Of a stretch of DNA of 43,959 nt, positions 9,647-38,097 are shown in pieces. Made by a program: the position numbers and the translations under genes. This stretch comes from a bacterium (lineage in GTDB: Bacteria; Hydrothermota; DG-26; JAUXAN01). Under the pieces are notes generated by a model that was not told the origin of the DNA, searched no databases, and saw only the letters and a list, made by a program, of their open reading frames with translations. Within the stretch, counting starts at the first letter, position 1; each line of letters opens with the position of its first letter. The stretch is from positions 1 to 43,959 of the forward strand of contig JAUXAN010000018.1 of the NCBI GenBank assembly GCA_030619885.1, read 5' to 3'.

Positions 9647-9898
9647 CGCGTGACTCCATATGAAAGAAACAAAAAGGGAAAGTAGTAACGCAAGTTCAAA
9701 AAATCTTAATCAAAAATGGGGACAGTCACTCGGGAATAAGATTAAACATCTAGGAGAGGCGAATGTTGTAATGTAAGACTTGACCCCATTTGGATTCTCC
9801 GAAAGGAGAAAATGAACCACGTGAGTTAATGGGTAAGCATTTAAAATTATTTTTTTGCAAAACCTGGACTAACTGAATCAAGGAGTGTGGAAAGAAAC
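9647..9898. other. Spacer with dispersed repeats at the left edge of the accessory region
   Basis: No gene is seen. The stretch has a degenerate copy of the GGGGACAGTC repeat (9714-9730), a copy of the GACTTGACCCC repeat (9776-9793) and a short hairpin TTCTCC/GGAGAA (9795-9810). From here to 38.1 kb every gene lies on the + strand and repeats fill the spacers. Confidence 0.6.
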
Positions 9899-11146
9899 AT
9901 GCGATTACTGTTGATAGTACCTCTTTTGCCGGGGGGGGGAGGAGGTTTGGCCCCGAATTTGGGTATCGTTACTTTAGCTGCCTTGACACCCCCAGATATT
10001 GAAGTCTTGGTGATAGATGAGAATGTAGAGGGACTCAATTTTGACGAAGAGATTGACTTGGTTGGAATAACAGTAATGACCCCAACTGCAATTCGGGCAT
10101 ATGAGGTCGCCGATGTATTCAGAAAGAGAGGAACAGCCGTTGTTTTGGGAGGTTTTCATCCTTCCGCAATGCCTGAAGAAGCCATTCAACACAGCGATTC
10201 CATAGTTATAGGAGAAGCGGAGGAAATATGGACGACACTTCTTCATGATTTTGAGTTAGGAAAACTTGGGAAATTCTATCGTCGCAAGGAGCTGGCAAAT
10301 TTAGAAAATCAATCTATTCCCAGAAGGGATTTGCTTAAAGCTAAAGCCTATACAATGTTTAATACTGTAGAAACTGCGAGGGGATGTCCATTCCGTTGCA
10401 GCTTTTGTTCGGTTGCCTCATTTTTTAGCAACACCTACCGATTTCGTCCGGTCAAGGATGTTGTTAAAGAAGTTGAAACTCTCAAAGGTAAATATCTATT
10501 CTTTGTAGATGATAACATTGTTAAAATACCCCGGCGCGCAAAGGAGTTATTTAAAGCAGTAACTCCTTGTAAGAAAAAATGGATAGGTCAAGCATCATTA
10601 ACCTTTGCCAGAGATGAAGAGCTGCTCAAACTGGCTGCCGAAAGTGGATGTATTGGAATGTTTATAGGCTTCGAATCTTTATCACAGGCAAGCTTAAGAG
10701 AAGTGGGCAAATCATTTAATGTTGTTAAGCATTATGAGGAGGCCATTAAGAAAATACACGCGCATGGAATTTCAATCCATGGCGCTTTCATATTCGGGTT
10801 TGATCATGATGACGAGAGCGTTTTTGAGAAAACAGTGGAGTTTGTCAAAAACAATAAACTTGACTCTGTGTCGTTTTCAACCCTAACTCCCTTTCCGGGA
10901 ACACCAATTTACCAGAAATTAATTAAAGAGAACAGAATAGTCACTAAAGACTGGAGTAAGTACGGCGGTGCTGTCTTCAGGCCGAAGTTGATGTCTCGAG
11001 AGGTATTGGACGAGGGTTGCAAATGGGCATGGAAGGAGTGCTATTCATATAAGTCAATCTTTACCAGATTGGGATTACCAAAAGGGAACTGGTTTCTTCG
11101 TCTGTTACTAAATCTGGGGTATAAAAAGGCGATAGGGTGTCTATAA
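9899..11146 (+). CDS. B12-binding domain radical SAM protein
   Basis: About 415 residues. The N-terminal third is a B12-binding Rossmann domain (LAPNLGIVTLAALTPP near the start, DLVGITVMTPTAIRA, then VVLGGFHPSAMPEEA). The radical SAM core follows with C163-PFR-C167-SF-C170 in ARGCPFRCSFCS, the [4Fe-4S] ligand triad, and IGMFIGFESLSQASL and GAFIFGFDHDD as later barrel strands. This is the BchE/HpnR-like class, which methylates or rearranges unactivated carbons. The substrate is unknown. GTG at 9887 is an alternative start, but ATG 9899 has GGAAAG four bases upstream. A run of nine Gs in codons 9-12 is a potential slippage or sequencing-error site. Confidence 0.88.
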   Translation: MRLLLIVPLLPGGGGGLAPNLGIVTLAALTPPDIEVLVIDENVEGLNFDEEIDLVGITVMTPTAIRAYEVADVFRKRGTAVVLGGFHPSAMPEEAIQHSDSIVIGEAEEIWTTLLHDFELGKLGKFYRRKELANLENQSIPRRDLLKAKAYTMFNTVETARGCPFRCSFCSVASFFSNTYRFRPVKDVVKEVETLKGKYLFFVDDNIVKIPRRAKELFKAVTPCKKKWIGQASLTFARDEELLKLAAESGCIGMFIGFESLSQASLREVGKSFNVVKHYEEAIKKIHAHGISIHGAFIFGFDHDDESVFEKTVEFVKNNKLDSVSFSTLTPFPGTPIYQKLIKENRIVTKDWSKYGGAVFRPKLMSREVLDEGCKWAWKECYSYKSIFTRLGLPKGNWFLRLLLNLGYKKAIGCL

Positions 11147-11250
11147 AGTTAGTTTCTGGGACCAGTAACGGCCGGCTGGACATTGGACACATTTCTTGAG
11201 AAATGGAGAAAGGGAGCAGCGGCGGAAGGGTGAAAACAACGAAATACTAT

Positions 11251-11414
11251 GCACTAAACACTTATATTAGTATATTTACATTGACACAATAGTGTAAATA
11301 GGTACAATTCATTAGATAGACACAGATATAAGTTTTAAATAAAAATATAAAATTTGTACATTATAAATTCAGCAGGGAAGGCGGAACCAAACTTCGGATA
11401 TGAATGAGTTAGGC
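11251..11414 (+). repeat. attC-like imperfect inverted repeat, candidate site 1
   Basis: The left arm at 11251-11270 (GCACTAAACACTTATATTAG) pairs imperfectly with the right arm at 11396-11414, which is GGATATGAATGA followed by GTTAGGC. GTTAGGC fits the integron R' core GTTRRRY, but the left core ACTAAAC deviates from RYYYAAC by one base. A further palindrome TATTTACA/TGTAAATA lies inside. The 313-base gap from 11147 to 11459 holds nothing else recognisable. Confidence 0.4.
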
Positions 11415-11459
11415 ACCAGCGTATAGAGATTTAAAGGTGTAAAGAAAGGAGGATGCAAG

Positions 11460-12542
11460 ATGACCAACGACATTTATGAACAGCTTGCTGTGGCTTTGGA
11501 CAGGCTTCCAAATGGTTTTCCCAGAACACCATCGAACGTCGAGATACAACTTCTGAAAAAGATGTTCTCACCAGAGGAGGCTTCGATAGCTATCCAATTG
11601 TGCGGGGACATGGAACCCGTTGATGTAATAGCAAAACGGATTGGACTGCCTGTCAAGGAAGCCATGACAATGTTGTTGAATATGGCCAAGCGAGGATTTG
11701 TATGGTCCGATAAGCAGGCTGGTAAGCTACGGTTCAGACTGGCGCCCTTCATAATAGGCATATTTGAATTTCAATTGGATAATATGGACCACGAGCTTGC
11801 TCATCTCACAGACCATTATATGGCGGATGGAGGTGCTGCAGGTATCATGAGACCACACCCCGCCGTACATCGGGTTGTCCCCGCACAAAATGCAGTGAAA
11901 ACTGAGTGGATACTTCCCTATGACGATGTCCGGAAAATTCTTCTGGCTGCCAAGACGATTCGTGTCGAGGATTGCATCTGTCGAGTGCAGATGGCCCATA
12001 TCGATCGTAGGTGCAACTTTCCTCTCAGAACTTGTCTGAACTATTCTTTAAAGGAGCGTCCTCCAAGACCACATTGTATTTCGCAGGAGGAGGCTCTGGA
12101 CATCCTCGATCAGGCAGAAGAGGTCGGTCTGGTCCATACAGTAAGCAACATCCAGAAGATCCAGACGGGGGCCTTGTGGGTATATGAGATTGGTTACATC
12201 TGTAACTGCTGCGGTTGCTGCTGTGCCATGCTCAGAGGAATCAACGAGTGGGGAATAGAGAATTCGGTAGCCGCTGCCAACTACTACGCGGTCATTGATC
12301 CTGATGAATGCCTGGGATGTGGAACTTGCATAGAACGATGTCAGGTAAATTCGATCTCTGAAAAGGACGGGATTGCTGTTGTTGATCGAAAGAAGTGTAT
12401 CGGATGCGGTTTGTGCGTAACTGGATGTCCCAATGATGTGACAAAACTTCACAGAAAGCCTGATGTCGAAATCGTCCACCCTCCTGCAGATTTTGCAGCC
12501 TGGGAGCATGAGCGCTTGCGAAACCGTGGTTTGATCAAGTAG
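11460..12542 (+). CDS. Cysteine-rich 4Fe-4S dicluster protein with N-terminal winged-helix-like part
   Basis: 360 residues. Residues about 25-90 look like a helix-turn-helix (VDVIAKRIGLPVKEAMTMLL...RGFVW). The middle has extra Cys groups (VEDCICR, RRCNFPLRTCL and the striking CNCCGCCC). The C-terminal part contains two ferredoxin motifs, CLGCGTCIERC and CIGCGLCVTGC, each binding a [4Fe-4S] cluster. This architecture occurs in anaerobes as an uncharacterised redox or electron-transfer protein, and its partner is unknown. AAGGAGG lies seven bases before the ATG. The GC content looks clearly higher than that of neighbouring genes, which suggests transfer. Confidence 0.8.
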   Translation: MTNDIYEQLAVALDRLPNGFPRTPSNVEIQLLKKMFSPEEASIAIQLCGDMEPVDVIAKRIGLPVKEAMTMLLNMAKRGFVWSDKQAGKLRFRLAPFIIGIFEFQLDNMDHELAHLTDHYMADGGAAGIMRPHPAVHRVVPAQNAVKTEWILPYDDVRKILLAAKTIRVEDCICRVQMAHIDRRCNFPLRTCLNYSLKERPPRPHCISQEEALDILDQAEEVGLVHTVSNIQKIQTGALWVYEIGYICNCCGCCCAMLRGINEWGIENSVAAANYYAVIDPDECLGCGTCIERCQVNSISEKDGIAVVDRKKCIGCGLCVTGCPNDVTKLHRKPDVEIVHPPADFAAWEHERLRNRGLIK

Positions 12543-12594
12543 CTGTTCACCAGATTTGGGCTTTGCCGGGAGGCAGGCGTTCAATTGTTCACAA

Positions 12595-13234
12595 ATGAAA
12601 TACGATGAAGCATACAGTAAAATAGAGAACTATTTTGGAACGGAATCTACACTGATACTAAGAAATTACTATCATTTGTTAAACAAGTCCAAGCCAATTT
12701 TAGATGTCGGGGTAGGGCAGGGTCGTAATGCATTATTTTTGGCGAGAAAAGGCTTTTCGGTTGATGCAATTGATCCGTCAAAAGTCGCTATAGATACTGT
12801 ATTATCTATAACCTCGAAAGAAAGGCTATCTATCCGTACATATCAATGTAGTTTTGAAACTTTTACTCAAGTTCGATTTCTACTCTGGAATTCTTATATT
12901 CGGGCTTATTCAAATCTTGTCCTGGGAAGCTATTGAGCTACTACTTGAAAAAGTCAAGAGGTGGACTAATAAAGGAAGTTTAGTATTTGTCACAGGATTC
13001 ACCACAGCAGACCCGTCGTTTTCTCGATATACACAAGAATGGAAAACCATTGGAAGGAACTCGTTTATAAACGAGCACGGTAACATCAAAACTTATTTGG
13101 AAACGGGCGAAATTTTAAATCTATTTAGTGAATTTAATGTAATACATCACTGGGAAGGCATTAGCCCTGAGCACAGGCACGGAGATGGCCCACTTGAGCA
13201 ACATGCTATGGTTGAAGCGGTACTTCAGAAATAG
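12595..13234 (+). pseudogene. Frameshifted SAM-dependent methyltransferase (TehB-like)
   Basis: Two overlapping frames together make one methyltransferase of about 210 residues. The first frame starts MKYDEAYSKIENYFG and has motif I ILDVGVGQGRNALFLARKG and the acidic VDAIDPSKVA. The second frame continues with ILIFGLIQILSWEAIELL and KGSLVFVTGFTT to the natural end. The shift falls near 12865-12890, in the stretch reading aagttcgatttctactctgg. Neither half alone would be functional. No ribosome site is evident before ATG 12595. It could be a true pseudogene or a single-base assembly error. Confidence 0.8.
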
Positions 13235-13239
13235 CATAG

Positions 13240-13336
13240 GGTTAACTACATTTAAAAGCGTTTTTACCGTTTGCTTCGCTAACTCAAACCAAAATGCATT
13301 GAGATAAAAGGGTAGGCGGATATAAACGAGTTAGGC
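13240..13336 (+). repeat. attC-like recombination site, best candidate
   Basis: A 97-base imperfect palindrome. The left core is GGTTAAC at 13240-13246 and the right core GTTAGGC at 13330-13336. The outer left arm (TAACT-A-CATTTAAAAGCG) pairs with CGGATATAAACGAGTTA with an unpaired A, like the extrahelical bases of attC. Next, TACCGTTT (13265-13272) pairs with AAAGGGTA (13307-13314) with one mismatch, then CTCAA (13283-13287) with TTGAG (13299-13303) closes an apical loop. Size, core sequence and architecture match integron attC sites. The left core deviates from RYYYAAC by one base. Confidence 0.55.
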
Positions 13337-13373
13337 AGAATAACTGATAAAGTTATACAAAGGAGGAATAATT

Positions 13374-14306
13374 ATGATGAAGAATAATGAGATGCCATCT
13401 CATCATGGAGTAGAGGAATCTCCTGATGCCAAATACCCAAATCAGACGCTAAAACTGCTGTTTGAGCGTGCCAGTTGCAGAAATTTTTCCGATCAAAAAA
13501 TCGCGCCAGATGTTTTGCAACTTGTTCTTGAGGCAGGAATCCATGCACCTACAGGAGGTAACTTGCAACCTTATTCCATTATAAAAATCGAAAAGGATGA
13601 AACAAAACAAAAATTATCAGAGCTTTGTGGAAGACAGAATTACATAGCTGAGGCTCCTATTAATCTATTGTTTTGCATAGACTGGCATCGTATTGGAAGG
13701 TGGGCACAACTTGAGATTGCTCCTTTTACCGCCACCAGCTCTTTTCGACATTTCTGGATATCTTTTCAAGACACAATTATCTCTGCTCAAAATATTTGTA
13801 CTGCCGCAGACTCATTGGGATTAGGCTCGGTTTATATTGGTACTGTCTTGGAGTGCTTCAGGGAGCTTCGTGATATGTTTCAATTGCCAAATGGAGTATT
13901 TCCGGTCGTACTACTTTGCCTGGGCTGTCCCAAAACCAAGCCCCAACCTCGAAAAAAGCTGGATGTTAATGTAATTGTCCACGATGAAAAATATCATGAA
14001 ATAGAAGATCAAAATCTTAGGGACTCATTTAACGAGAAATACCCTGATTTGAAAGTTCAAATAACTGAAGAACGACTCCAAAAGATTTCGGAAGTTTGTC
14101 GGAAAGTTCACGGAGAAGAATTTGCCAGGAAGTGTATCGAAAGGATTAAAAAGAGTGGATATATAAACCCGGTACAACGGTATTTTGGGCTTCATTATTG
14201 TGCCGATGAGATGCTTGAAGTAAATGATGAATATCTGAAACTTATGGAGGAATTTGGATTCAATTGGTTCAAGAAATATCACCCATTTGAGGATAAAACA
14301 ACATAA
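13374..14306 (+). CDS. Nitroreductase-family FMN protein
   Basis: 310 residues. The N-terminal 190 residues are a nitroreductase fold: LLFERASCRNFSDQKI (FMN phosphate binding, with the family R-S-x-R-x-F-like signature), LEAGIHAPTGGNLQPYSI, and ADSLGLGSVYIGTV...LPNGVFPVVLLCLGCP. The C-terminal 110 residues are a charged helical extension (ERLQKISEVCRKVHGEEFA) absent from standard nitroreductases. AAGGAGG ends seven bases before the ATG. The gene is the first after the attC-like site. The substrate is unknown, and family members reduce nitro, quinone or flavin-type acceptors. Confidence 0.85.
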   Translation: MMKNNEMPSHHGVEESPDAKYPNQTLKLLFERASCRNFSDQKIAPDVLQLVLEAGIHAPTGGNLQPYSIIKIEKDETKQKLSELCGRQNYIAEAPINLLFCIDWHRIGRWAQLEIAPFTATSSFRHFWISFQDTIISAQNICTAADSLGLGSVYIGTVLECFRELRDMFQLPNGVFPVVLLCLGCPKTKPQPRKKLDVNVIVHDEKYHEIEDQNLRDSFNEKYPDLKVQITEERLQKISEVCRKVHGEEFARKCIERIKKSGYINPVQRYFGLHYCADEMLEVNDEYLKLMEEFGFNWFKKYHPFEDKTT

Positions 14307-14355
14307 ATATGAAAGCGTCGAGACCATGTGGGGACTGGCATAAACTTTTAATAAC

Positions 14356-14384
14356 TTGACAGATATGAGATATTTTAATAGAAT
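14356..14384 (+). promoter_or_regulatory. Strong sigma70-type promoter before the small lipoprotein ORF
   Basis: TTGACA at 14356-14361, a 17-base spacer and TAGAAT at 14379-14384. Transcription should begin near 14391, and GGAGG follows just before ATG 14402. It would drive the small lipoprotein ORF and the BPL_N gene together. Confidence 0.65.
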
Positions 14385-14401
14385 GATACGTGGAGGTATA
14401 A

Positions 14402-14512
14402 ATGAGACATCTAATGCAATTTGTTTTACTGTTTGCTGTGGTGGTAGCAATTTTCAATAGCTGTGCTCGTGAAAATTCAGAAGAAGGTGAACCAATAATT
14501 GAGGGGGTGTAG
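14402..14512 (+). CDS. 36-residue lipoprotein-like small ORF
   Basis: The reading frame starts MRHLMQFVLLFAVVVAIFNS, then continues CARENSEEGEPIIEGV. It has a complete signal peptide with a plausible lipobox (IFNSC) and a short acidic tail, preceded by a good ribosome site (GGAGG) and the promoter at 14356. It stops five bases before the next start codon. It is either a genuine small lipopeptide or the truncated front of a lost lipoprotein gene. The following gene also begins with a lipoprotein signal, so a tandem arrangement is possible. Confidence 0.5.
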   Translation: MRHLMQFVLLFAVVVAIFNSCARENSEEGEPIIEGV

Positions 14513-14516
14513 AGAA

Positions 14517-15317: not shown

Positions 15318-15400
15318 ATTTAAAAGGTCTACTTTTTGTTGGGCGCAAGACCTGACTCCATTTGCAGAGGTTTACTAAGAATAATTAAAAAGGAGGTATT

Positions 15401-18075: not shown

Positions 18076-18123
18076 CTCGTACAATTAAAGATGCTATGAA
18101 AGAAAACCAGCGGGTCGAAAAAC

Positions 18124-18151: not shown

Positions 18152-18157
18152 AGTGCA

Positions 18158-19117: not shown

Positions 19118-19247
19118 ATTAATGGGAGTGAACCAGGAAATGTATCTATTGATTTCGCTAAACTTGTGCCAGGGTGGCAGGTCTTGACAATCTACAATTT
19201 CTGTATAGGTTAAATTGAAATTCCTTTTATCGTTTTGATCTATAATT

Positions 19248-19266
19248 AAAGTATAAACACGAATGT
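19248..19266. repeat. 19-bp repeat also present at the window end
   Basis: AAAGTATAAACACGAATGT here is the exact reverse complement of a stretch covering the outer edge of the terminal inverted-repeat element (about 43796-43814). A match of this length is not expected by chance in 44 kb, so this is a fragment or relative of the same dispersed element. Confidence 0.75.
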
Positions 19267-19285
19267 GATTCGTGGTTCTTTTTTC

Positions 19286-19313
19286 TTGACATAGCAGTAT
19301 AGTTGGATAAAAT
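19286..19313 (+). promoter_or_regulatory. Promoter of the prolyl oligopeptidase gene
   Basis: TTGACA at 19286-19291, a 16-base spacer and TAAAAT at 19308-19313. The transcript would start near 19320 with a leader of about 87 bases that contains the GGATATGAACGA repeat motif and ends in AAGGAGG before ATG 19407. Confidence 0.6.
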
Positions 19314-19406
19314 AAAAAGATAGTTACGGATATGAACGAGTTTGCAGACATTACCCAAAAATTGTATCTGAATAAATGTTCGACATAATTAAAAGGAGGT
19401 TGAGAG

Positions 19407-21584
19407 ATGTTACCTAATAGAAGATTTATTGCTTCGCTATCGCTCTTTGTTTTATTCAATCTTATCCTTTTATGTATCTCTGGTTGTGGAGTTTCAGAGT
19501 TCCGTGCAAGGTCCTCCCACACTACATTCATAGATGAACAAATTGTAACTCCTCCTGTCGCTAAAGTAATACCTAAAGCTGACACTCTACATGGGGATGT
19601 TCGCATCGATAATTATTATTGGTTAAGAGATAGATCTAATCTGGATGTGATCGAATATATTGAGGCAGAAAATGAATATACTGAAGCAATGATAAAACAT
19701 ACCGAAGAATTTCAGGAACAATTGTACAAAGAACTTTTGGGTAGAATTAAAGAAACAGATCTTTCCGTGCCGGAAAAAATAGATGATTATTACTACTATA
19801 CACGCACAGAAGAAGGAAAACAATATAAAATTTACTGCAGAAAAAAGGGAGGTCTTGATTCCGAAGAAGAGATATTGCTTGACCAGAATGAACTTGCAAT
19901 TGGACATAAATATTTAGACGTTGGTGCTTATAAAGTCAGTCCCCATCACAGACTTCTTGCATATTCTGTGGACACAACAGGTTCGGAGAGATACACTCTT
20001 TATATTAAGGATTTAGATAAGAATGAACTGTCCAAGGAAGAAATTTCGAATACCAGTTATAGTGTAGCATGGGCCAATGACAATAAGACCATTTTTTATG
20101 TCACTTTAGATGATGCAAAACGTCCTTTTAAGCTTTACAGACATACATTGGGGACTGACCCAAATGAGGATATACTTATCTACCATGAAAAGGATGATGC
20201 ATTCTGGCTCTATATATCAAGGACAAAAAGTAAAGAATATTTAATAATGGATTTAGGAAGTCATATCACTTCAGAGGTCCATTACTTAAAGGCTGATCGC
20301 CCAACCGATAATTTTAAATTGATACACCCCCGTCAACACGAAATGGAGTATTATATTGACCACCATGGCGATAAATTCTATGTCATGACCAATGATAATG
20401 CAAAGAATTTCAAGTTGATGGAAGTATCTGTTCAGAATCCTTCAAAAAAGAATTGGAAGGAAGTGATTCCCCACCGCGATTCAGTTAAAATAGATGGTTT
20501 TGATGTCTTTAAAGAGCATCTGGTAGTTTACGAAAGAGAGAATGGACTGAAAAAGATCCGTATAATGAATCTTGTGAATTACGAGATTCACTATGTTGAT
20601 TTTCCTGAACCGGTTTATACATTCTGGCCAAGCCGAAACCCAGATTTTAACATCAACATACTTCGCTTTACTTACACATCGTTGGTTACGCCAAAATCTG
20701 TTTTTGATTACAATATGGTCCTTCGGACTCGTGAATTGAAGAAACAGTATCAAGTCCTTGGTAGGTATGAGCCATCCCTTTATCAATCAGAGAGAATTTT
20801 TGCGAGAGATTCGGATGGCACTATGGTTCCCATATCATTGGTTTACAAGAAAGGAATGGTTAAGGATGGTGATAATCCTATGTTATTGATTGGCTATGGT
20901 GCATATGGTCACAGTTTTGAGCCTTATTTTTCCTCGAACCGGTTGAGTCTTTTGGATCGTGGTTTCATATATGCAATTGGACATGTCCGTGGTGGTGGTG
21001 AAATGGGGAGATACTGGTATGAACAGGGTAAATTTTTGAACAAGATGAATACCTTTACTGACTTTATTGAGAGTGCCGAACACTTGATTGCTGAAAAATA
21101 TACTTCCAGCGATAAATTAGTCATCAACGGGGAAAGTGCCGGTGGATTGCTTATGGGAGCTGTAACCAACCTACGACCGGATCTCTTTAAAGCTGTTATC
21201 GCTGATGTTCCTTTTGTGGACCTTCTCAACACTATGCTGGATCCATCCATACCGTTGACTGTTGTAGAGTATGGAGAATTGGGAAACCCCAACGAGAAGG
21301 AATATTACGATTACATGAAATCTTATTCTCCATACGATAATGTTGAAGCCAAGAAGTATCCCAACATACTTATTACGGCCGGCCTGAATGATCCACGGGT
21401 GCAATATTGGGAGCCGGCCAAATGGACAGCGAAATTAAGAACCTTAAAAGTAGATGACAACCTTTTACTGCTCAAAACAAATATGGGAGCTGGACATGGC
21501 GGCTCGTCCGGTCGGTATGACTACCTGAAGGAAATTGCTTTTGAATTTGCTTTTATTTTTGATTTGTTTGAGATAGAAAAATAA
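19407..21584 (+). CDS. S9A prolyl oligopeptidase/oligopeptidase B-like lipoprotein
   Basis: 725 residues. A signal peptide with lipobox (CISGC) anchors it in the envelope. Residues about 50-440 are the seven-bladed propeller domain (IDNYYWLRDR is the family N-terminal signature), and the rest is an alpha/beta hydrolase. The catalytic Ser577 is in NGESAGG, the Asp is in GLNDPRVQYWEP and the His is in GAGHGGSSGRYDY. GGGEMGRYWYEQGK is the usual S9A block. It cleaves short peptides after proline or basic residues, and the GHVRGGGEMG-type active site resembles oligopeptidase B. The gene has its own promoter, a good ribosome site and no adjacent partner. Confidence 0.92.
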   Translation: MLPNRRFIASLSLFVLFNLILLCISGCGVSEFRARSSHTTFIDEQIVTPPVAKVIPKADTLHGDVRIDNYYWLRDRSNLDVIEYIEAENEYTEAMIKHTEEFQEQLYKELLGRIKETDLSVPEKIDDYYYYTRTEEGKQYKIYCRKKGGLDSEEEILLDQNELAIGHKYLDVGAYKVSPHHRLLAYSVDTTGSERYTLYIKDLDKNELSKEEISNTSYSVAWANDNKTIFYVTLDDAKRPFKLYRHTLGTDPNEDILIYHEKDDAFWLYISRTKSKEYLIMDLGSHITSEVHYLKADRPTDNFKLIHPRQHEMEYYIDHHGDKFYVMTNDNAKNFKLMEVSVQNPSKKNWKEVIPHRDSVKIDGFDVFKEHLVVYERENGLKKIRIMNLVNYEIHYVDFPEPVYTFWPSRNPDFNINILRFTYTSLVTPKSVFDYNMVLRTRELKKQYQVLGRYEPSLYQSERIFARDSDGTMVPISLVYKKGMVKDGDNPMLLIGYGAYGHSFEPYFSSNRLSLLDRGFIYAIGHVRGGGEMGRYWYEQGKFLNKMNTFTDFIESAEHLIAEKYTSSDKLVINGESAGGLLMGAVTNLRPDLFKAVIADVPFVDLLNTMLDPSIPLTVVEYGELGNPNEKEYYDYMKSYSPYDNVEAKKYPNILITAGLNDPRVQYWEPAKWTAKLRTLKVDDNLLLLKTNMGAGHGGSSGRYDYLKEIAFEFAFIFDLFEIEK

Positions 21585-22522: not shown

Positions 22523-22610
22523 AAATTTCATGCAAGAGTGAGAACTTACAGAATGGAAGAAAAAAACAAGATTAGTCTTTCACCCATAAGAATGTATATA
22601 CACAATGGTG

Positions 22611-22671
22611 CAGATATACCCTCAAATCGGGAAGATATCTGTAGTAGTTGGGATATAAACGAATTGTAAGC
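22611..22671 (+). repeat. Hairpin plus attC-like end, degenerate candidate
   Basis: A hairpin CAGATATACCC/GGGAAGATATCTG occupies 22611-22641. It is followed by GGATATAAACGA at 22651-22662, the motif shared with three other spacers, and then ATTGTAAGC where a core GTTAGGC would be expected. A CTTACA upstream (about 22545) can pair with TGTAAG. The core is not canonical. The rest of the 22523-22781 gap holds no gene. Confidence 0.35.
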
Positions 22672-22781
22672 TGGCAGAAATCAAGAATATCGGGCATCCC
22701 TAAAAATGTTGAATAATCATATGTTGAATAATCTATTAGAAATTTTTAAGGAATCTTAAAGAGATAATAATGGAGGAAGAA

Positions 22782-24596
22782 ATGAATTTAATATTTCGAT
22801 TTCCGTTTATTATTTTTATGTTTGCATTCACCTTAGTGCTAATGGCAGAGGAAGGAGTAATTATGAGTAGCGAAACAGTTTCAGAATTTGGAAAGTACGA
22901 GGGATATTCAAAACCCATCTATGACGAATGGGTTCGAAAATCACAGTATCTTGAAATGTCAGATGGTGTGAAGCTGGCGATGGATATCATACGACCGGCA
23001 AAAGGAGGAAAGCCAGTGGAGGAACCGTTGCCCGTGGTGTGGAACTATTATCGATATCATCGAGCACGTGAGGAAGATGGGAAAATACTTTCAATGGTAG
23101 ATCGATCGACATCGTTGCAAACTCTGGTTAAACATAGTTATGTTATTGTAGTAGTGGATGCTCGGGGGACCGGGGCTTCATACGGAACCGAGGACAGGGG
23201 TCCAAACACTGAACAAGAAGCCCAGCATACCTACGAAATCACAGAATGGCTGGCTACTCAGCTGTGGTGTGATGGTAATGTAGGCATGTTTGGGCATTCC
23301 TACTCTGGCAATATTCAGTTCCGCGCTGCTGGCGAGTCTCCTCCGCATCTTAAGGCAATTTTCCCGTCTATGGCAACGTTTGATTTTTACGAAATATTTT
23401 ATCGGGGAGGTGTATTTGGTGATAAAAGTGCACAGGGCTTGAGGCGCGCTTTAAATTATTGGGACATTGAGACTCCAGCACCGAGAGTGGATGAAGACTC
23501 TACTGGTGAGATGCTAAGAGAAGCAATGGCAGAGCATCAAAAAAATGTAGACCCTTACACTTTTTTAAAAATGTATACTTACCGTAATACACGAAAAAAT
23601 GATTTGACACTTTGGATTGAAAATAATCCAATGACTTATTTTAAGGGAGTAAATGAATCTGGTATCCCGGTATATCAATGGGCTGGCTGGTTCGATTTTA
23701 TTAGACGCGACGCGTTTCAGTGGTTTGCGAATTTAAAGAATCCACAGAAGCTGACAATTGGGCCATGGTCACATGGTTCGCATGATTGGTATGACCTGCT
23801 TGCAGTTGAACAATTACGCTGGTTTGACTACTGGCTTAAGGGCATTGACAATCGTATTATAGACGAGCCAATAATCCATTATGCTATAATTCAAAAGCCA
23901 GATGTATTCACATGGCATACTGCAAAAACATGGCCCTTACCTGAGTCTAAGCAAGTCCGCTACTATTTCGGAGCTGGACCGTCTGGCAGTGTCCAATCGG
24001 TGAATGATGGAATATTGTCCACAGAAGAGCCAACAAGTGACAAAGGACATGACTCATACGTTGTTGATTACAGTACCACATCCGAAGAGGAAGATATGAG
24101 TGTCAATGATGCGAAAGGGCTTACCTATACTACAGTGCCTCTTAAAAAAGATATTACTGTCATAGGACATCCAGTTGTAACTCTCTATATTGCATCTTCG
24201 GCTGAAGATGGTGATTTCTATGTGTATTTGGAGGAGGTAGATACAGATGGTGTATCACGCCGTATCACAGATGGGATTCTTCGAACCTCACATCGAGCTC
24301 TGTCAGAGCCAGCTTTTAACAATCTGGGTCTTCCATATCATCGTCATTTCAAAGAGGATGTAAAGCCATTACCGAAAGGAGAACCAGTGGAACTAATATT
24401 TGACCTCTTACCCATTTCCAAAGTGTTCAAGGCTGGCAATCGCATCAGGGTAACCGTCATCTGCGCAGATGCAAGCTACACTGAGGAGGGTAAGTTAGAA
24501 CCTCCACCAACAGTAACACTGCATCGTAATCGTCAATATGCTTCAAAAATCACTTTGCCTATTGTTATGAAAAAAGATGGCAGAAAACAGAAATAG
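22782..24596 (+). CDS. CocE/NonD-family S15 hydrolase (X-Pro dipeptidyl-peptidase-like), exported
   Basis: About 604 residues. An N-terminal hydrophobic stretch suggests a signal peptide or anchor. The alpha/beta hydrolase domain has VVVDARGTGASYGTED, the nucleophile motif GHSYSGN and GWFDFIRRDAFQW followed by TIGPWSHGSHDWYD with the catalytic His. The C-terminal part from about 410 is a jelly-roll domain (PVVTLYIASSAEDGDFYVYL, SKVFKAGNRIRVTV), as in cocaine esterase and X-Pro dipeptidyl-peptidases. It is either a peptidase or an ester hydrolase, which the sequence cannot separate. GGAGG lies five to six bases before ATG 22782. It is ten bases from the threonine aldolase gene. Confidence 0.88.
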   Translation: MNLIFRFPFIIFMFAFTLVLMAEEGVIMSSETVSEFGKYEGYSKPIYDEWVRKSQYLEMSDGVKLAMDIIRPAKGGKPVEEPLPVVWNYYRYHRAREEDGKILSMVDRSTSLQTLVKHSYVIVVVDARGTGASYGTEDRGPNTEQEAQHTYEITEWLATQLWCDGNVGMFGHSYSGNIQFRAAGESPPHLKAIFPSMATFDFYEIFYRGGVFGDKSAQGLRRALNYWDIETPAPRVDEDSTGEMLREAMAEHQKNVDPYTFLKMYTYRNTRKNDLTLWIENNPMTYFKGVNESGIPVYQWAGWFDFIRRDAFQWFANLKNPQKLTIGPWSHGSHDWYDLLAVEQLRWFDYWLKGIDNRIIDEPIIHYAIIQKPDVFTWHTAKTWPLPESKQVRYYFGAGPSGSVQSVNDGILSTEEPTSDKGHDSYVVDYSTTSEEEDMSVNDAKGLTYTTVPLKKDITVIGHPVVTLYIASSAEDGDFYVYLEEVDTDGVSRRITDGILRTSHRALSEPAFNNLGLPYHRHFKEDVKPLPKGEPVELIFDLLPISKVFKAGNRIRVTVICADASYTEEGKLEPPPTVTLHRNRQYASKITLPIVMKKDGRKQK

Positions 24597-25647: not shown

Positions 25648-25698
25648 TTAAGACCCTAACATATTACGCTGTCCCTATTTTTATTAAAAGATGAAATC

Positions 25699-27034: not shown

Positions 27035-27209
27035 GAATGGAATTGTGTAATGGCAAAGATAGATAGGAAAGCGATTTCGGCTAACACGCTATTTGTGGCT
27101 TAAAAGAAATAATGGGGACAGTCCTTATTTTTAGAACGAGTATGTCGGCTGGATTCCAGAGATGCTCAGCGGTTAAGTGACATTGCCTTGTATAGAAAAA
27201 GGAGTAACC

Positions 27210-27863
27210 ATGAAACTTGAGGAGTATCTTTCAAAATTTGTGGGATTAAAAACCTTATATGAGGAAGTAGAGCAGAATTTTCTCACCAAGGGACTCGTGC
27301 ATCATAACCGGAACCATATACTCAGGGATTTAGCGAGAGGCATTATAATAGGCGCGGAAGAAGGAGCAAATATGAAAGTTGTTTTAGCAGGCGTTTTACT
27401 GCATGACATTGGCAGACTTTATCCCGAGTCCGGTAAAGATCACTACTCAGTAGGAGGGGAAGTAGCACCTAAATATCTAAAACACGCTGGCTTCACCGAA
27501 GAAGAAATTGAGGAAGTAGTGCATTGCATAAGGTGTCATGGTCCAAGGGGATTAGAAGAGCCAAGAACCTTAGAGGCAAAGGTCTGCTATGATGTAGATG
27601 TTCTCTCCTGTTCGGTAGGTTATATTGGGGTTGCGAGGGTCTTCGACTACTTCATGAGGGAAGAGGGAATGAATGTAAAGCAGATGGTGGGATTTCCGAG
27701 TGGAAGAAAAGGACTAAGAAAGAATTTTTATACCGAAACTGGTAGAAAACTTGGTGAAGGAGGGCTTAAAAAGGCAAAGAAATTTTGGGGGGAGTTAAAT
27801 CAAGAGTTTGCTAAAGAAGAGAAATGTATAAGGAAAATTATTCCAGATTATGAAGGAGATTAG
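27210..27863 (+). CDS. HD-domain phosphohydrolase
   Basis: 217 residues. The HD superfamily metal site is seen as HHNRNHILRDLARG, then VLLHDIGRLYPESGKDHY (the HD pair) and VVHCIRCHGPRG, with a later conserved Asp in CYDVDVLSCSVGYIG. These are divalent-metal phosphohydrolases acting on nucleotides or related substrates. The specificity is not readable. AAAAAGGAG lies six bases before ATG 27210, so the longer frame from 27177 is not used. A GGGGACAGTCC repeat (27111-27133) occupies the spacer upstream. Confidence 0.85.
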   Translation: MKLEEYLSKFVGLKTLYEEVEQNFLTKGLVHHNRNHILRDLARGIIIGAEEGANMKVVLAGVLLHDIGRLYPESGKDHYSVGGEVAPKYLKHAGFTEEEIEEVVHCIRCHGPRGLEEPRTLEAKVCYDVDVLSCSVGYIGVARVFDYFMREEGMNVKQMVGFPSGRKGLRKNFYTETGRKLGEGGLKKAKKFWGELNQEFAKEEKCIRKIIPDYEGD

Positions 27864-28325
27864 AAGTACATGAACATCGTCAATATGTGGATGGTAACAT
27901 CACCTAAACAAAGTGTATCTGGCTTCGTGCCTTCCTACGAACCGTATGGTCGGCACTCACCCCAAATCCAGCCTGTCGGCTGGACTTCAGCCACGTTCGG
28001 GGTCATAAATAGGGTCAAGTCTACACTTTTCACTTGACATTTTTGCAGAGTGGGTCTATCCTCTCGAAGATGGCCAGACGCAAAAAATGAGTACAGTCCC
28101 AAGACAGCGTTGTTTACTTCTACGCTTCGTGCACATCACTATCGCCAACACCGAACACGTTGTGGGTAATGTTTTTGACAATCTGGAAGCCAGCAAGAAA
28201 GGAAATGAATAATGAAATAAAAGAGGTAAAGAGAGGAGCATCTCTTTATAAACAACGATGAGTTTTCCTATATTTTTGATATATTATCTCAGTTCGGGCC
28301 TCAATCGCCAGGTCAAGGGGAAAAA
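27864..28325. other. Spacer with hairpin, dispersed repeat and possible gene fragment
   Basis: This 462-base gap has a perfect hairpin TCCAGCC/GGCTGGA (27967-27984) nested inside ACCCC/GGGGT arms, a GGGTCAAGTCTACAC-type repeat at about 28009-28040, and a frame ending in TAA at 28212. That frame reads WVYPLEDGQTQKMSTVPRQR, then CLLLRFVHITIANTEHVVGN, and is open from 28009 without a usable start. It may be the tail of a lost gene, but I do not recognise it. No RNA gene is seen. Confidence 0.45.
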
Positions 28326-29938: not shown

Positions 29939-29989
29939 ATGAGAACAAGCAATTGAAGATGTATTCAATAACATAGAGGGAGAGCAAAA

Positions 29990-30646: not shown

Positions 30647-30658
30647 TATTAATGAAAA

Positions 30659-30684
30659 AATGGGGACAGTCCCTATTTTTATTA
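30659..30684. repeat. GGGGACAGTCCC dispersed repeat, intact copy
   Basis: The sequence is AATGGGGACAGTCCCTATTT followed by TT and an AT-rich tail. Related copies are at 9714-9730, 25669-25690, 27111-27133, 33531-33555, 33566-33589, 35234-35258, 35640-35664 and 35722-35742. The core GGGACAGTCCC is palindromic. All sit in spacers of the accessory region, one inside the end of a gene. Confidence 0.9.
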
Positions 30685-30700
30685 GAAAAAGTAATAAAAG

Positions 30701-31123: not shown

Positions 31124-31160
31124 ATCATTTAAATTTAGTAAAAGAAGTAGAGAAAAAGAA

Positions 31161-33523: not shown

Positions 33524-33530
33524 ATGGGGA

Positions 33531-33589
33531 AAAATGGGGACAGCCCCTATTTTTACTCATTGAAAAACGGGGACAGTCCCTAATTTTAC
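33531..33589. repeat. Two tandem GGGGACAG repeat copies
   Basis: Two copies stand side by side: GGGGACAGCCCCTATTTTTAC at about 33537-33556 and GGGGACAGTCCCTAATTTTAC at about 33569-33589. They fill the spacer between the glycosyltransferase gene and the STAND-like gene. Confidence 0.85.
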
Positions 33590-33655
33590 TGTTTTTCTGG
33601 GGAATTTGAAAATAAACGATTCATTTCTGTCCTTAGTTGACATTTCTTGAAAAAT

Positions 33656-35263
33656 ATGTTAATAATGCGAGAAGTTATTTTGAATCTTCTAAGTCTCTTT
33701 TCCGCTGATACAACAATGGAATCAGGAGCATTATCTTCGACAAGGCAGTTTACATTGTCTTCTTGGGCTCGGAATATTTTAATAGCATTACTTATATTCC
33801 TTATCGAAGAGTTCATTCGGCGTGTAATCATTCCAAAAATTTTCCCAAGACATTTTGAAGGAATTGTTAAAAAGATAAATAAAATTACGCCGGATGATTT
33901 TGATGTTAGAAAGCCAAGAGACTTGGATATTTCTGAGGAAGAATATATTCAGTCTTTCATACTCAGACCTGCAGACCAAAAAATTAAAGAGATGATTGAG
34001 AAAAGAAGGAATGTTTTGATTCTCGGTCCGTCAATGCAAGGTAAATCAAGAGAAGCCTTTCAAATTCTCTATGAGATGAAAGAAAAACTAGGAGGTTTTT
34101 CGTTCTTACGACCATTGATAAAACAATATATAAAAGACATCCCAAAGAAAAAGAAAGTCATCATCTTTCTAAATGACTTGGACAAGTATGCTAACGAGAA
34201 TTTTGCTTTGTCAGAGTTTCTGCGTAATTTCCAAAATGAGACAATAATTGTTGCAACCTGTCGCACCGGAGATGAATATGATAATGCCTGTAAAAAATAT
34301 TCTTACGAAATCGAGACTTTCGAAAAGATCAATCTTGAATACATTGATGAAAGATCTGCTGAAGAATTGGCGCGTAAAACTGGAAGACCTGTGGATGATT
34401 TTGATGGAACTCCAGGAAGTATCCTTTTAGGTCTTGGGAGAATTGAACAGAAAATCCACGAACTTCCAAAAGAATCAAAAGCTTTGCTCAGAGCAATGAA
34501 ACTTTTGGCCATCTCCTACATATATTCCCCAAAGGTTAAGGTGTTGAAAGGTGTGAGTGAAGATATCTTTCTAACTCCAGGGATTCAATTTGAGGATAAT
34601 CTAAGGCTATTGATTGAGACTGGCTTAATTATGGAATACAAAAACATTCTCAGGATTTGGCATGATAAGTATTTTGATTTTATTGATTATCATTTTGATA
34701 TAGAGCATCTTCATAAACTAAGTCAAACCCTTTTCAGGCTGAAAGAAATAGAAGGATTGATATATCTCAGTAGTTGGTATGGAAACAACAGATTGTATAA
34801 TGAAGTCATAGAAACTTGTAACATAGCACTTGAACTTGGCCCGAAATATACCGGGGCTTTTAACAATCGAGGACTTGCTTATTATTATAAAGGCGAATTA
34901 GATAAGGCGATAGAGAATTGTGATATGGCGATAAAATTTGGCCCGAAATATGCCGGGACTTTTAACAATCGAGGGCTTGCTTATACAGATAAAGGCGAAT
35001 TAGATAAAGCGATAGAGGATTATAATGAAGCGATAAGACTTGACCCGAAAGACGCTGTGGCTTTTAACAATCGAGGGAATGTTTATATCAAGAGAGGCGA
35101 GTTAGATAAAGCAATAAAGGATTGTAATAAGGCGATAAAACTTAACCCGAAGTACGCGGGGGCTTTTAACAACCGAGGGCTTGCTTATTATTATAAAGGC
35201 AAATTAAATAAAGCAATAGATGATTATAATGAAGGGAAAATAGGGACGGTTCTCTTTGTGTGA
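33656..35263 (+). CDS. Membrane-anchored STAND-like P-loop NTPase with C-terminal TPR repeats
   Basis: About 535 residues. A transmembrane segment (ILIALLIFLIEEFI) lies near residues 41-54. The NTPase part has Walker A GPSMQGKS (about 123-130), Walker B KKVIIFLNDLDKY and a sensor-type ATCRTGDEY, followed by a winged-helix-like stretch (LLIETGLIMEYKNILRIWHD), an arrangement of STAND/AAA signalling ATPases. From about 365 come TPRs, four of them in near-identical 102-bp units. The last TPR runs into a dispersed GGGACGGTTCTC repeat, giving the odd end EGKIGTVLFV. The start is uncertain (33665 or 33716 are alternatives). Possible conflict or defence protein; no effector domain is visible. Confidence 0.72.
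   Translation: MLIMREVILNLLSLFSADTTMESGALSSTRQFTLSSWARNILIALLIFLIEEFIRRVIIPKIFPRHFEGIVKKINKITPDDFDVRKPRDLDISEEEYIQSFILRPADQKIKEMIEKRRNVLILGPSMQGKSREAFQILYEMKEKLGGFSFLRPLIKQYIKDIPKKKKVIIFLNDLDKYANENFALSEFLRNFQNETIIVATCRTGDEYDNACKKYSYEIETFEKINLEYIDERSAEELARKTGRPVDDFDGTPGSILLGLGRIEQKIHELPKESKALLRAMKLLAISYIYSPKVKVLKGVSEDIFLTPGIQFEDNLRLLIETGLIMEYKNILRIWHDKYFDFIDYHFDIEHLHKLSQTLFRLKEIEGLIYLSSWYGNNRLYNEVIETCNIALELGPKYTGAFNNRGLAYYYKGELDKAIENCDMAIKFGPKYAGTFNNRGLAYTDKGELDKAIEDYNEAIRLDPKDAVAFNNRGNVYIKRGELDKAIKDCNKAIKLNPKYAGAFNNRGLAYYYKGKLNKAIDDYNEGKIGTVLFV
34859..35233 (+). repeat. Four 102-bp tandem TPR-coding repeats
   Basis: TTTAACAATCGAGG-type units begin at 34859, 34961, 35063 and 35165, exactly 102 bases apart, each coding one 34-residue TPR (for example AFNNRGLAYYYKGELDKAIE). 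DNA identity is high enough for copy number change by slippage or recombination, so the array is probably young. Confidence 0.9.
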
Positions 35264-35483
35264 GTTTAACGAACCAGAGATTAGAATTAAATATTAAAAA
35301 ATAACCATTTAGGGAGAATGGAACTTTATCAAAATGACTTTTTCTAATCATGAAAATGGTGTCAGGTCTGATTTTTCTTTAATTGTGAAAAAACTTTTAT
35401 AATTAAAAGACAGTGAAACCATTAAACCATACAGACCACCTTGGTTCTATAAGACTGGCAACTGATCAGAATAATGCAGATTT

Positions 35484-35510
35484 AATCCCACCCCTGGGGT
35501 GGGATTTTGG
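35484..35510 (+). terminator. Strong GC hairpin with T-rich tail
   Basis: AATCCCACCCC and TGGGGTGGGATT are perfectly complementary (11 pairs) and are followed by TTGGTTT. It has the form of a Rho-independent terminator, although the T tract is short. It could end transcription from the STAND-like gene. Confidence 0.5.
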
Positions 35511-35741
35511 TTTAATTGATAAGGATGGGAATTGCTATTCAAAACCTTAAATTGGTGGTAAAAAGATGAAGGTTCACTATACAAGTGGTGGACCGAATCA
35601 GAAAAGAAAATAGTGTCAGGTCTGATTTATACCGTGAAGAATGAGGACAGCCCCTATTTTTTATTGACAAAATAAAACTTGTAAGATAAGATTAATTTAC
35701 TATGTCAAGGATAGCAAGAGTTGTCGCTGTCTCTATTTTTT

Positions 35742-35796
35742 ATGGTTAAAAATGACCGTGATTGTAATTTTATTAGTACAGATAAACCTAGGTTAG
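35742..35796 (+). repeat. 55-bp direct repeat, left copy
   Basis: This segment matches 36761-36815 at 50 of 55 positions. It starts at an ATG and ends in GTTAG. It codes MVKNDRDCNFISTDK in frame, and the frame runs on to 35840. The two copies bracket the alpha/beta hydrolase gene. It contains the palindrome AACCTAGGTT near its end. Confidence 0.85.
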
Positions 35797-35841
35797 CGCT
35801 TAATTTATTTCTACCAATTAAACTTGTCATACGAGGTTAAA

Positions 35842-36666
35842 ATGAAAGGTGATGAAAAGACATGGAAATATGATTATGCCGAGGTGAACGGTACGAAGCT
35901 TTATTATGGTCTTGCCGGCTCCGGTGATGCCATTGTCTTTATTCATGGGGGGTATTGCGATCTCCGGCAATGGGATGATCAGGGTGTTCCCTTCACCAAG
36001 CACTACAAAGTCCTTCGCTATGATTTAAGAGGGTATGGGAAATCAGCAGTACCTATTCCAAATCAGCGCTATACCCATCATGATGACCTTAAATTTTTGT
36101 TTGAATACCTTGGAATTTCTAAAGCGCATCTTTGCGGAGCCTCATTTGGAAGTGCTGTTGCCGTGGATTTCGCCCTTTCTTATCCAGAGATGTGCCTTTC
36201 TCTTATTCCTGTGGGTCCCTATGCATTCGGATATCGTTCTCCTTCGACCGAGAAGCTTTCTTCCATACTTGGAAGGATAGATTCAGTCTTTGTAAAGCAA
36301 GGGAAAACAGCAGCAATAAATTATATTTGTGAGAATCCTTTTTTCCAGATGGAACCACACACAGCGAAACGTTGTAAAGAAATAGGCTATGACTATTCCT
36401 TCTGGCATCATCAGAATGAAGATCCAGCAGATTATGTTTTTCCTCGTGCCATGAAACAAATTGATAAGATCAATTTACCTACACTCATCATAACCGCTAA
36501 TAACGACATTGAAGTCTGCCAGGAGATTGCCGATGTGATGGCACAAAAAATTCCGGGTTCGCAAAAGATCATCATTGCCGATGGAGGTCATGACATTAAT
36601 ATGAATCAACCTGCAGAATTTAATAAAACAGTACTAGATTTTTTAAACACGATGAACAAAAATTGA
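35842..36666 (+). CDS. Alpha/beta hydrolase
   Basis: 274 residues. IVFIHGGYCDLRQWDDQ is the oxyanion-hole block, YDLRGYGKS the following strand, LCGASFGSAVAVDFA the nucleophile elbow (Ser in GASFGS), LIITANNDIEVC holds the acid, and IIADGGHDINMNQP the catalytic His. This is a complete and probably active serine hydrolase of unknown substrate (esterase or haloperoxidase-like). I start at ATG 35842 with GAGG a few bases upstream rather than TTG 35824. The gene lies between two 55-bp direct repeats, like a mobile cassette. Confidence 0.88.
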   Translation: MKGDEKTWKYDYAEVNGTKLYYGLAGSGDAIVFIHGGYCDLRQWDDQGVPFTKHYKVLRYDLRGYGKSAVPIPNQRYTHHDDLKFLFEYLGISKAHLCGASFGSAVAVDFALSYPEMCLSLIPVGPYAFGYRSPSTEKLSSILGRIDSVFVKQGKTAAINYICENPFFQMEPHTAKRCKEIGYDYSFWHHQNEDPADYVFPRAMKQIDKINLPTLIITANNDIEVCQEIADVMAQKIPGSQKIIIADGGHDINMNQPAEFNKTVLDFLNTMNKN

Positions 36667-36760
36667 TTAGTTCGTGCGGTGCTTGACTTTTGACATTTTG
36701 TCATTTTAATGTAAATAAAGTGAATAAGCGAACAAAAAATAAATAAAAAAGGAGGTTTAT

Positions 36761-36815
36761 ATGGTTAAAAATAGCCGCGATTGTAATTTTATTAGTACAG
36801 ATAAACTTACGTTAG
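36761..36815 (+). repeat. 55-bp direct repeat, right copy
   Basis: Partner of 35742-35796, 1019 bases apart, with five mismatches in 55. It ends in GTTAG followed by GC. The pair flanks the alpha/beta hydrolase gene in direct orientation, which would allow excision by recombination. Confidence 0.85.
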
Positions 36816-36856
36816 GCAGCTTCGAGCTTATGGCTTACATATGCATTTCTCTTTAG
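36761..36856 (+). CDS. Small ORF on the right 55-bp repeat, 31 codons
   Basis: ATG 36761 has a perfect AAAAAGGAGG ribosome site six bases upstream and encodes MVKNSRDCNFISTDKLTLGS plus FELMAYICISL. Its first 15 codons duplicate the left copy at 35742. The strong ribosome site supports translation, but the peptide resembles no known family and may be the truncated front of a lost gene. The repeat ends in GTTAGGC (36811-36817), the same core seen at the attC-like sites. Confidence 0.4.
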   Translation: MVKNSRDCNFISTDKLTLGSFELMAYICISL

Positions 36857-36955
36857 TATCCGCAAAGGAAAAAGGGTGGCCTTGTTTATGACAATTTATT
36901 AGGAAACTGCCTCTTTATCCTTTAAATAATGGTTGAGTTTAGTTGGAGGCTAGAG

Positions 36956-37978
36956 ATGAATCAAAGATTATCAAATATTGACCCTCAAAAGATAGAGAAT
37001 TTAACGATGTCGGCCTACCCCTTCTTTGCTATGTTAGCAGGAATGCAGATCAATCTATTCACTGCTCTTAGGGATCGCTCCATGACATCAAAACAGATCG
37101 CTGACTCAATAGACGTCAATGCTAAAAAACTAACCCCGCTTCTCTATGCTCTTGTTGCAGCGGGTTTGTTGACTCTAGAGAGAAATCTGTTCTCCAATTC
37201 AAACGAGGCGAATCATTTCTTGGTTCCAGGTAGTCCGAACTACATGGTTGACCATGCATGCTTCAATGTAGATCCAATCTTCATGAGTTGGGTTGTAACT
37301 GCAGCCCAAAAGACTTCCGATACTATCCGTTCGGGAATACCTCAATGTAAATATGATTTCTCAACGATGTCTGAAGAGCAACTAGAGAAGGGATTCCGTG
37401 CAACACTTCCAATTGCAGTTAGAGCAGGTCACGAATTGGTTGCAAAGTATGATTTTACCCCGCACCATCACCTTCTTGATGTTGCGGGAGGTGCAGGTGG
37501 CCTTTCAATTGCGGTTACTGAGGATTGCCCTCATATGAGAGCAACAGTAGTAGATCTTGAACATGTTGCACCGATAGCCCAAAAGATAGTTGATGAGACC
37601 GGTGATACTGATCGGGTAAATGTCATGTCCGCTGATGTAGCTCAAGGTCCCTTATCGGGATCGTATGATGTGGCGGTACTACGTGCGATTATTCAAGTGC
37701 TTCCGCCTAATGAAGTTCCACTTGTGCTCGAGAATGTTAGCGCTGCCGTTGAAGCAGGCGGTATGATCTACATTCTTGGCCATATCCTTGATAATTCAAA
37801 GACTTCACCTATCGAAGAGGTATGGTACAGCTTACTCAATATAAATTTTTACGATATTCCCGGGTCCTATACTGAGGGTGAATATAGGGATTGGCTCTCT
37901 GGTGCTGGTTTTGACCCGTTAGAGTGTGATAGGCTTTTAAACGGAGATTCTGTAATAGTAGCTAGAAAACCCAAATAA
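36956..37978 (+). CDS. O-methyltransferase of acetylserotonin/caffeate type
   Basis: About 340 residues. The N-terminal dimerisation and winged-helix part (INLFTALRDRSMTSKQIADSI...LTPLLYALVAAGLL) is followed by the SAM domain: LLDVAGGAGGLSIAV (motif I), ATVVDLEHVAPIAQKIV, VNVMSADVAQGPL, YDVAVLRAIIQVLP and AGGMIYILGHILDN. This is the class II O-methyltransferase layout used on phenolic or polyketide substrates. TTGGAGG lies eight bases before ATG 36956. No biosynthetic partner is adjacent. It is the last gene of the + strand accessory region. Confidence 0.87.
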   Translation: MNQRLSNIDPQKIENLTMSAYPFFAMLAGMQINLFTALRDRSMTSKQIADSIDVNAKKLTPLLYALVAAGLLTLERNLFSNSNEANHFLVPGSPNYMVDHACFNVDPIFMSWVVTAAQKTSDTIRSGIPQCKYDFSTMSEEQLEKGFRATLPIAVRAGHELVAKYDFTPHHHLLDVAGGAGGLSIAVTEDCPHMRATVVDLEHVAPIAQKIVDETGDTDRVNVMSADVAQGPLSGSYDVAVLRAIIQVLPPNEVPLVLENVSAAVEAGGMIYILGHILDNSKTSPIEEVWYSLLNINFYDIPGSYTEGEYRDWLSGAGFDPLECDRLLNGDSVIVARKPK

Positions 37979-38097
37979 AGGGCTGTTTGTCTCGAATTCG
38001 CATTGGGGGTCAGATCTTGACATAGAGACATAAGAAAAGATTCGCAATTTTTAGGGTCGGATTTGAATATGTGGAAAGGGTGAGACACAGACAACAT

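Follow-up and report, generated by a model that had tools for sequence, protein, structure and literature searches.

Gene content and layout of the region

The window, that is, the whole stretch of 43,959 nucleotides analysed here, is one complete contig (C55) of a 2.46-Mb bin. All likely genes read from its open reading frames between 7799 and 37978 lie on the + strand, as an earlier note on this DNA had described, and are flanked by - strand genes at 5693-7551 and from 38098 onward. The note interpreted this region, which it considered of mixed base composition, as an integron-type cassette array devoid of integrase. No integrase was found within the window, and the GC content before, inside and after the region is 0.381, 0.400 and 0.428, respectively, values that differ but make composition a weak regional signal. 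The genes include TldD/TldE, an ordinary pair conserved across many relatives. The closest relatives of TldD carry the labels Zixibacteria, Stahlbacteria and WOR-3, and "WOR-3-like" is used below as a mere label taken from these names.

Four exact copies of the 12-mer GGATATRAAYGA, at 11396, 13318, 19328 and 22651, are all on the + strand and end 44-107 bp ahead of the next start codon, in agreement with the note. They are followed by GTTAGGC (11396 and 13318), GTTTGC (19328) and ATTGTAA (22651). The additional GTTAGGC at 36811, reported to end a repeat, indeed terminates one copy of a 60-nt repeat present at 35737 and 36756 (90% identity). This leader-type repeat is a short reading frame, mostly with a ribosome-binding site ahead, that ends in GTT[AG]; since all of its six genome copies diverge at or just past GTT[AG], it may represent another type of platform with a putative site of its own. 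The features of the region are listed in Table 1, where R1 denotes a covariance model of the two-hairpin site described below and R2 a model of attC.

Table 1. Putative recombination sites and associated features of the window
Feature	Position	Strand	Evidence	Context
Decayed attI-like site	11334..11421	+	motif; R1 16.2 bits, E 0.2	before 11460-12542 (4Fe-4S protein)
Conserved 3' part of this site, TTCGGATATGAATGAGTTAGGC	11393-11414	+		within 11334..11421
Decayed attI-like site	13251..13343	+	motif; R1 15.8 bits, E 0.25	before 13374-14306 (nitroreductase)
Conserved 3' part of this site, CGGATATAAACGAGTTAGGC	13317-13336	+		within 13251..13343
Decayed attI-like site	19250..19353	+	motif; R1 21.4 bits, E 0.015	before 19407-21584 (prolyl oligopeptidase)
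Complete two-hairpin attI-like site	22583..22674	+	R1 71.3 bits, E 1e-13 (sequence also part of the R1 alignment; first spotted through the motif of the earlier note)	before 22770-24596 (X-Pro dipeptidyl-peptidase, S15)
Possible attC remnant	27077..27179	+	R'' half TCGGCTAACACGC, broken by a GGGGACAG repeat; R2 13.1 bits, E 0.5, suggestive only
HD-domain gene	27177..27863	+	Pfam HD, 9e-9	between the two possible attC remnants
Degraded attC	27900..28009	+	R2 17.7 bits, E 0.03 (window) or 1.8 (genome)	directly 3' of the HD-domain gene
Leader-type repeat, ATGGTTAAAAATGACCGTGATTGTAATTTTATTAGTACAGATAAAC, ending at GTTA	35737..35796	+		before 35824-36666 (alpha/beta hydrolase)
Leader-type repeat, second copy, ending in GTTAGGC	36756..36815	+		before 36929-37978 (O-methyltransferase)

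Other repeats were observed in the contig. Its ends (1-67 and 43893-43959) are identical over 67 bp and enclose inverted arms (121-152 and 43804-43835). A circular molecule could explain this, but the more probable cause is a MITE-like repeat of ~240 bp that interrupted the assembly; a partial copy of this repeat occurs at 19242-19266. Spacer repeats of the GGGGACAGTCCCTATTTTTA type were located at 25671, 27099, 30647, 33521, 33554 and 35628, one of which breaks the possible attC remnant. A gene encoding a TPR protein (33647-35263) contains three repeats spaced 102 bp (34800-35207) and a STAND-NTPase-like stretch.

The motif and its two-hairpin site

The motif recurs in the genome (9 exact copies in 2.46 Mb vs 1 for the reversed pattern), and six of the nine directly precede a codirectional gene; the other three (C40, C41 and C51) occur in unrelated contexts. 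In the 147 genomes of the phylum the 16-mer GGATATRAACGAGTTA produced 21 matches against none for the reversed control. Within the window, the 12-mer alone with up to two mismatches (32 matches vs 18.6 expected) was barely above chance. Based on a multi-genome alignment, the motif is the predicted 3' arm and crossover end of a two-hairpin attI-like site of ~94 bp. This site contains hairpin 1, CCAAATTGG, and hairpin 2 with the 3' arm (T)TCGGATATA, followed by AACGAGTTAnnYGAAATT, and the aligned copies form a palindromic element.

The letters that follow GTTA vary among the copies, and GTTAGGC is therefore not the conserved part; of the GTTRRRY core proposed in the note, the crossover inside GTTA was retained while GTTAGGC as such was not. 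For the same reason, and because a complete attC fold is missing from the spacers, the reading of the motif plus GTTRRRY as the R' end of an attC, the 3' recombination site of a cassette, was rejected.

Within the window, the decayed sites at 11.4, 13.3 and 19.3 kb retain mainly the 3' part, and in the last of these a promoter of the TTGACA/TAAAAT type was read by eye 5' of GGATATGAACGAGTTT. The HD-domain gene flanked by the two possible attC remnants is the best candidate for an old cassette. Most spacers of the region contain no recognised site, and in place of an attC after each gene R2 gave two weak matches in 28 kb. It is very unlikely that the region is an undamaged array of some two dozen cassettes, lacking an integrase, in which the motif serves as attC: the single orientation, the motif in the spacers and GTTAGGC agree with this, but the motif is not attC, most spacers are siteless and many relatives keep TldD/TldE as a pair. 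The R1 and R2 results in the window mostly refute this reading. Given the siteless spacers and the presence of ordinary genes such as TldD/TldE, the window is a decayed, mixed region with worn remnants. What persists of the integron proposal is that the motif belongs to an integron recombination site.

Position of the site and junction evidence

The models R1 and R2 matched 65 and 72 of the 147 genomes of the phylum, respectively, counts that include some of the sequences used for model building. At two loci (L031 and L042) the two-hairpin site is immediately preceded by the C-terminal end of a tyrosine recombinase gene, and in nearly all close integrase copies inspected this site occurs within tens of bp 3' of the gene and is followed by differing genes; two more distant members of the subfamily (L059 and L061) have a transposase-like neighbour gene instead of the site. 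It was designated attI-like on the basis of its position after the integrase gene and its direction. Among 117 sites in fetched regions, 110 have a gene within 400 bp downstream, which is codirectional in 103 cases (median distance, 31 bp). Neither the named relatives of TldD nor the viral contigs gave an R1 match, suggesting that the attI sequence is lineage-specific.

The comparison of loci with each other revealed where exchange would have occurred. In 101 locus pairs with a common upstream part (>=120 nt) similarity breaks off at the site, with the final base of GTTA as the most frequent end point, and relatives carry different genes after the same site, as the note had proposed to examine. 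Reciprocally, the same cassette was found behind different sites in four pairs, three of which include the genome studied here: C11/G014 (88.9% over 549 bp), C70/G139, C44/G069 (85.6%) and G128/G124 (92%), the data being mostly metagenome bins in which misbinning or common contigs can mimic transfer. Similarity of these common cassettes begins within GAGTTA, which places the crossover, to within a few bases, between the G and the TT of the R' box; several of them have an eroded 3' end, and no intact attC was found there. These junction patterns are the apparent marks of cassette exchange between the G and the TTA, which is the integron crossover, and the codirectional cassettes differ among the genomes of the relatives.

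A cis-regulatory element of the 5'-UTR, or part of a promoter, could also produce a motif with hairpins nearly always directly 5' of a codirectional gene, often with sigma-70-like promoters upstream. This possibility is contradicted by the junction data, since homologous cassettes begin at GTTA behind different sites. Besides, the downstream genes are unrelated, the site follows the integrase gene, and Rfam scans of the window and 18 motif loci retrieved nothing relevant, so that a purely regulatory role is extremely unlikely.

attC hairpins and array order

Some partner loci display a different upstream structure, e.g., TCGCCTAACACCGGACATACGG...CGTATGTCCGCAGCCGTTATCTG, which is the classical form of an attC. 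In an alignment of twelve of these, compensatory changes were present in 15 of the 18 pairs of the stem; for the attC hairpins as a whole, both sides have changed at 17 of 18 pairs. Considering 95 attC matches, 87% of the stem cells were paired and double changes amounted to 435, compared to 144 in shuffled and 45-96 in slid structures. The consensus ends, RYMTAAC (R'') and GTTAKRY (R'), are mutually complementary and wider than the textbook RYYYAAC/GTTRRRY, of which the strict forms were found in 24/75 and 28/77 cases, respectively. The attC search with R2 gave a weak result in the window and a clear one in the phylum, where hairpins with R''/R' ends separate the cassettes of the relatives.

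Neighbouring sites (<=4 kb apart) were on the same strand in all 106 pairs and on opposite strands in none, in the order attI-attC (51), attC-attC (32), attC-attI (15) and attI-attI (8). Regular arrays (L192, L193, L169 and L156) contain mostly one to three genes per interval, and the cassette genes scanned encode, among others, a SnoaL-like protein, an acetyltransferase, a nitronate monooxygenase and unknown proteins. The order of the arrays in relatives is int-attI-gene-attC, with the integrase gene adjoining attI outside the window.

It could be argued that these sites are the trace of a mobile element (promoter, integrase and end-site) that inserts before resident genes, which stay put, the short copies being internally deleted, MITE-like derivatives. 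Such an element would account for the many sites that carry the promoter of the integrase together with the two ends of its deleted gene, and for the sharp loss of upstream similarity at the site. However, the common genes lose similarity soon after the gene and lie in unrelated neighbourhoods, separate attC hairpins bound the cassettes, all 106 pairs of neighbouring sites are on one strand, and free insertion is not expected to fall nearly always ~30 bp before a codirectional start. The mobile element is a quite unlikely source of these observations.

An integrase without the IntI insertion

A search with the recombinase delineated a subfamily whose members reach 77% identity between different families. 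The best sequence match of the integrase in PDB was IntI4 of Vibrio cholerae (7e-45), which was likewise the best match of its predicted fold (mean pLDDT 84), and the phmmer alignment was interrupted where IntI4 has about 42 additional residues. Alignment against IntI1 evidenced that all subfamily members examined lack the ~41-residue IntI insertion near patch III (I2), and two conserved boxes are spaced 59 residues here vs 99-101 in four IntIs. Consistently, with the IntI profile TIGR02249 the integrases scored below the cutoff (207-228 vs 265 bits) with the match split into two stretches, and the WOR-3-like enzymes surpassed that of the XerA-type profile NF040815 (224-244 vs 220 bits). Most copies contain an N-terminal GHRWxPxxKxWxFP stretch, and the gene is oriented towards its cassettes.

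In a tree of 32 proteins, which included XerC/XerD and not XerA, the integrases grouped with Rufibacter, TnpF and IS91-linked enzymes (90/81) beside the four IntIs (100/99), both separate from Xer (100/100). The IS91-linked recombinases thus belong to the same clade as the integrases, and this clade is placed, with moderate support, as the sister of IntI. A TnpF gene (L366, 2043-2708) was observed beside ISVsa3 and tet(X3) in an Acinetobacter plasmid.

In the genome studied here the sole integrase copy of the close subfamily carries an in-frame deletion of 142 aa and is located on C70, in the order int fragment, attI, SnoaL-like gene and good attC; no intact integrase of the family was found in this genome. 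Other deleted forms were noticed in relatives. In L035 (G074:C92) the N-terminal stretch of an integrase gene runs straight into the conserved CGGATATAAACGAGTTA end, likely a deletion junction, and in L153 and L154 each array has several attI-like copies, every one with the promoter of the integrase and the two ends of a gene that lacks its interior, which suggests that the platform itself was repeatedly captured or duplicated.

Occurrence outside the phylum

The finished plasmid NZ_CP012644 of Rufibacter tibetensis, a cultured isolate of the Bacteroidota, encodes at 102.7-110 kb (L367/L373) an I2-less integrase followed by small codirectional genes in a cassette-like array. Some hairpins in the spacers end in CGTTAG or CGTTG, and several of them bear CCAAC, CACAAC or CCTAAC opposite; these attC-like sites were identified visually, one of them also by a hairpin scan, and R2 had no match in the Rufibacter stretch or in R388. 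A search of the IMG/VR database with the integrase retrieved contigs that are classed there as viral; an exact 21-mer scan of the database gave no match. One of these contigs (L285) has three attC matches downstream of the integrase, and three (L298, L300 and L311) have several upstream of the gene on the opposite strand, which is the canonical integron layout. Most of the encoded enzymes have a length of about 265-279 aa, which leaves no room for the insertion, the box spacing having been measured in some.

A rival explanation is that a conventional IntI, provided in trans or missing from the bins, builds the arrays while the I2-less recombinase merely adjoins the site. IntI1 acts on foreign attC, including archaeal ones (PMC9668308), and I2 is held in the literature to be necessary for cassette capture (PMC7790495). 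On the other hand, no IntI was found at E<=1e-40 (TIGR02249) in any of the 147 genomes, a search in which no control match occurred and for which IntI1 of plasmid R388, run later as positive control, scored 507 bits; the I2-less gene adjoins attI in nearly all copies; and the same pairing exists on the finished Rufibacter plasmid, where no IntI was above the TIGR02249 cutoff. The participation of an undetected IntI is accordingly unlikely.

Proposed mechanism

Based on the available evidence, it is probable that the motif supplies the 3' arm, with the crossover end, of an attI-like site belonging to an integron lineage that is scattered across this candidate phylum. In this lineage the platform would consist of promoter, integrase gene and attI, all in one direction, and the integrase, a sister of IntI devoid of the I2 region, would insert circular gene cassettes by joining attI (ending in CGAG) to the TTAnnn end of the attC hairpin of the cassette. 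Repeated insertion would build int-attI-gene-attC-gene-attC arrays. From the position of these enzymes, their co-occurrence with the sites and the lack of any other above-cutoff IntI, we infer that they catalyse the attI x attC reaction. In the genome studied here the single integrase copy found has lost an internal stretch, and the window retains worn attI-like remnants and probable captured genes, which would have arrived as cassettes, next to ordinary ones.

A broader proposition, less firm and still fairly likely, is that a widespread I2-less lineage sister to IntI runs true attC-array integrons in at least two phyla (the candidate phylum and Bacteroidota) and in viral-classed contigs; I2 would then not be generally needed for capture, and detection that requires the IntI domain would miss these systems.

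Comparison with known systems

I2 has been described as unique to IntI and necessary for cassette capture, and its deletion kills IntI1 (PMC4792948; PMC7790495), so that its role in the origin of integrons has not been directly testable. Natural I2-less enzymes in attI/attC arrays would provide the missing comparison and make this question testable. Searches of the IntegronFinder type demand the IntI-specific domain (PMC9668308), and platforms such as these would consequently be filed as integrase-less attC clusters or missed. In a literature search of mostly titles and abstracts that covered a minority of subscription papers and no preprints, no description of I2-less integrases with attC arrays and no paper combining "integron" and "WOR-3" was found.

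Earlier work has already documented integrons, codirectional intI and attI-type sites within arrays; what is new is that enzymes devoid of the insertion are repeatedly paired with attI/attC arrays. With IntI integrons (class 1 and Vibrio types) the platforms share an attI beside the integrase gene, R''/R' attC hairpins, the crossover after the G of GTTA and codirectional cassettes, and differ from them in the insertion-less integrase, its orientation along the cassettes and the many platform copies per genome. In Treponema denticola-type integrons the integrase gene is also transcribed towards attI, along the cassettes (PMC3607928); that enzyme was reported as intI, and the likeness is one of orientation. 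The attI-type sites between genes resemble the Delta-attI gene cassettes of mobile integrons, which are handled by IntI1 in clinical arrays (PMC12901181). As for the enzymes, the insertion was held essential for integron function when an "integron-like" subgroup of simple tyrosine recombinases was described (PMC8138268), whereas here insertion-less enzymes adjoin attI/attC arrays. They pass the cutoff of the XerA-type profile, yet cassette arrays are foreign to chromosome-dimer resolution and the tree separates them from XerC/XerD. The TnpF adjacent to IS91/ISVsa3 is ~51% identical to the integrases of the lineage and also lacks the insertion; it is tied to an IS91 transposase, with no attC array seen.
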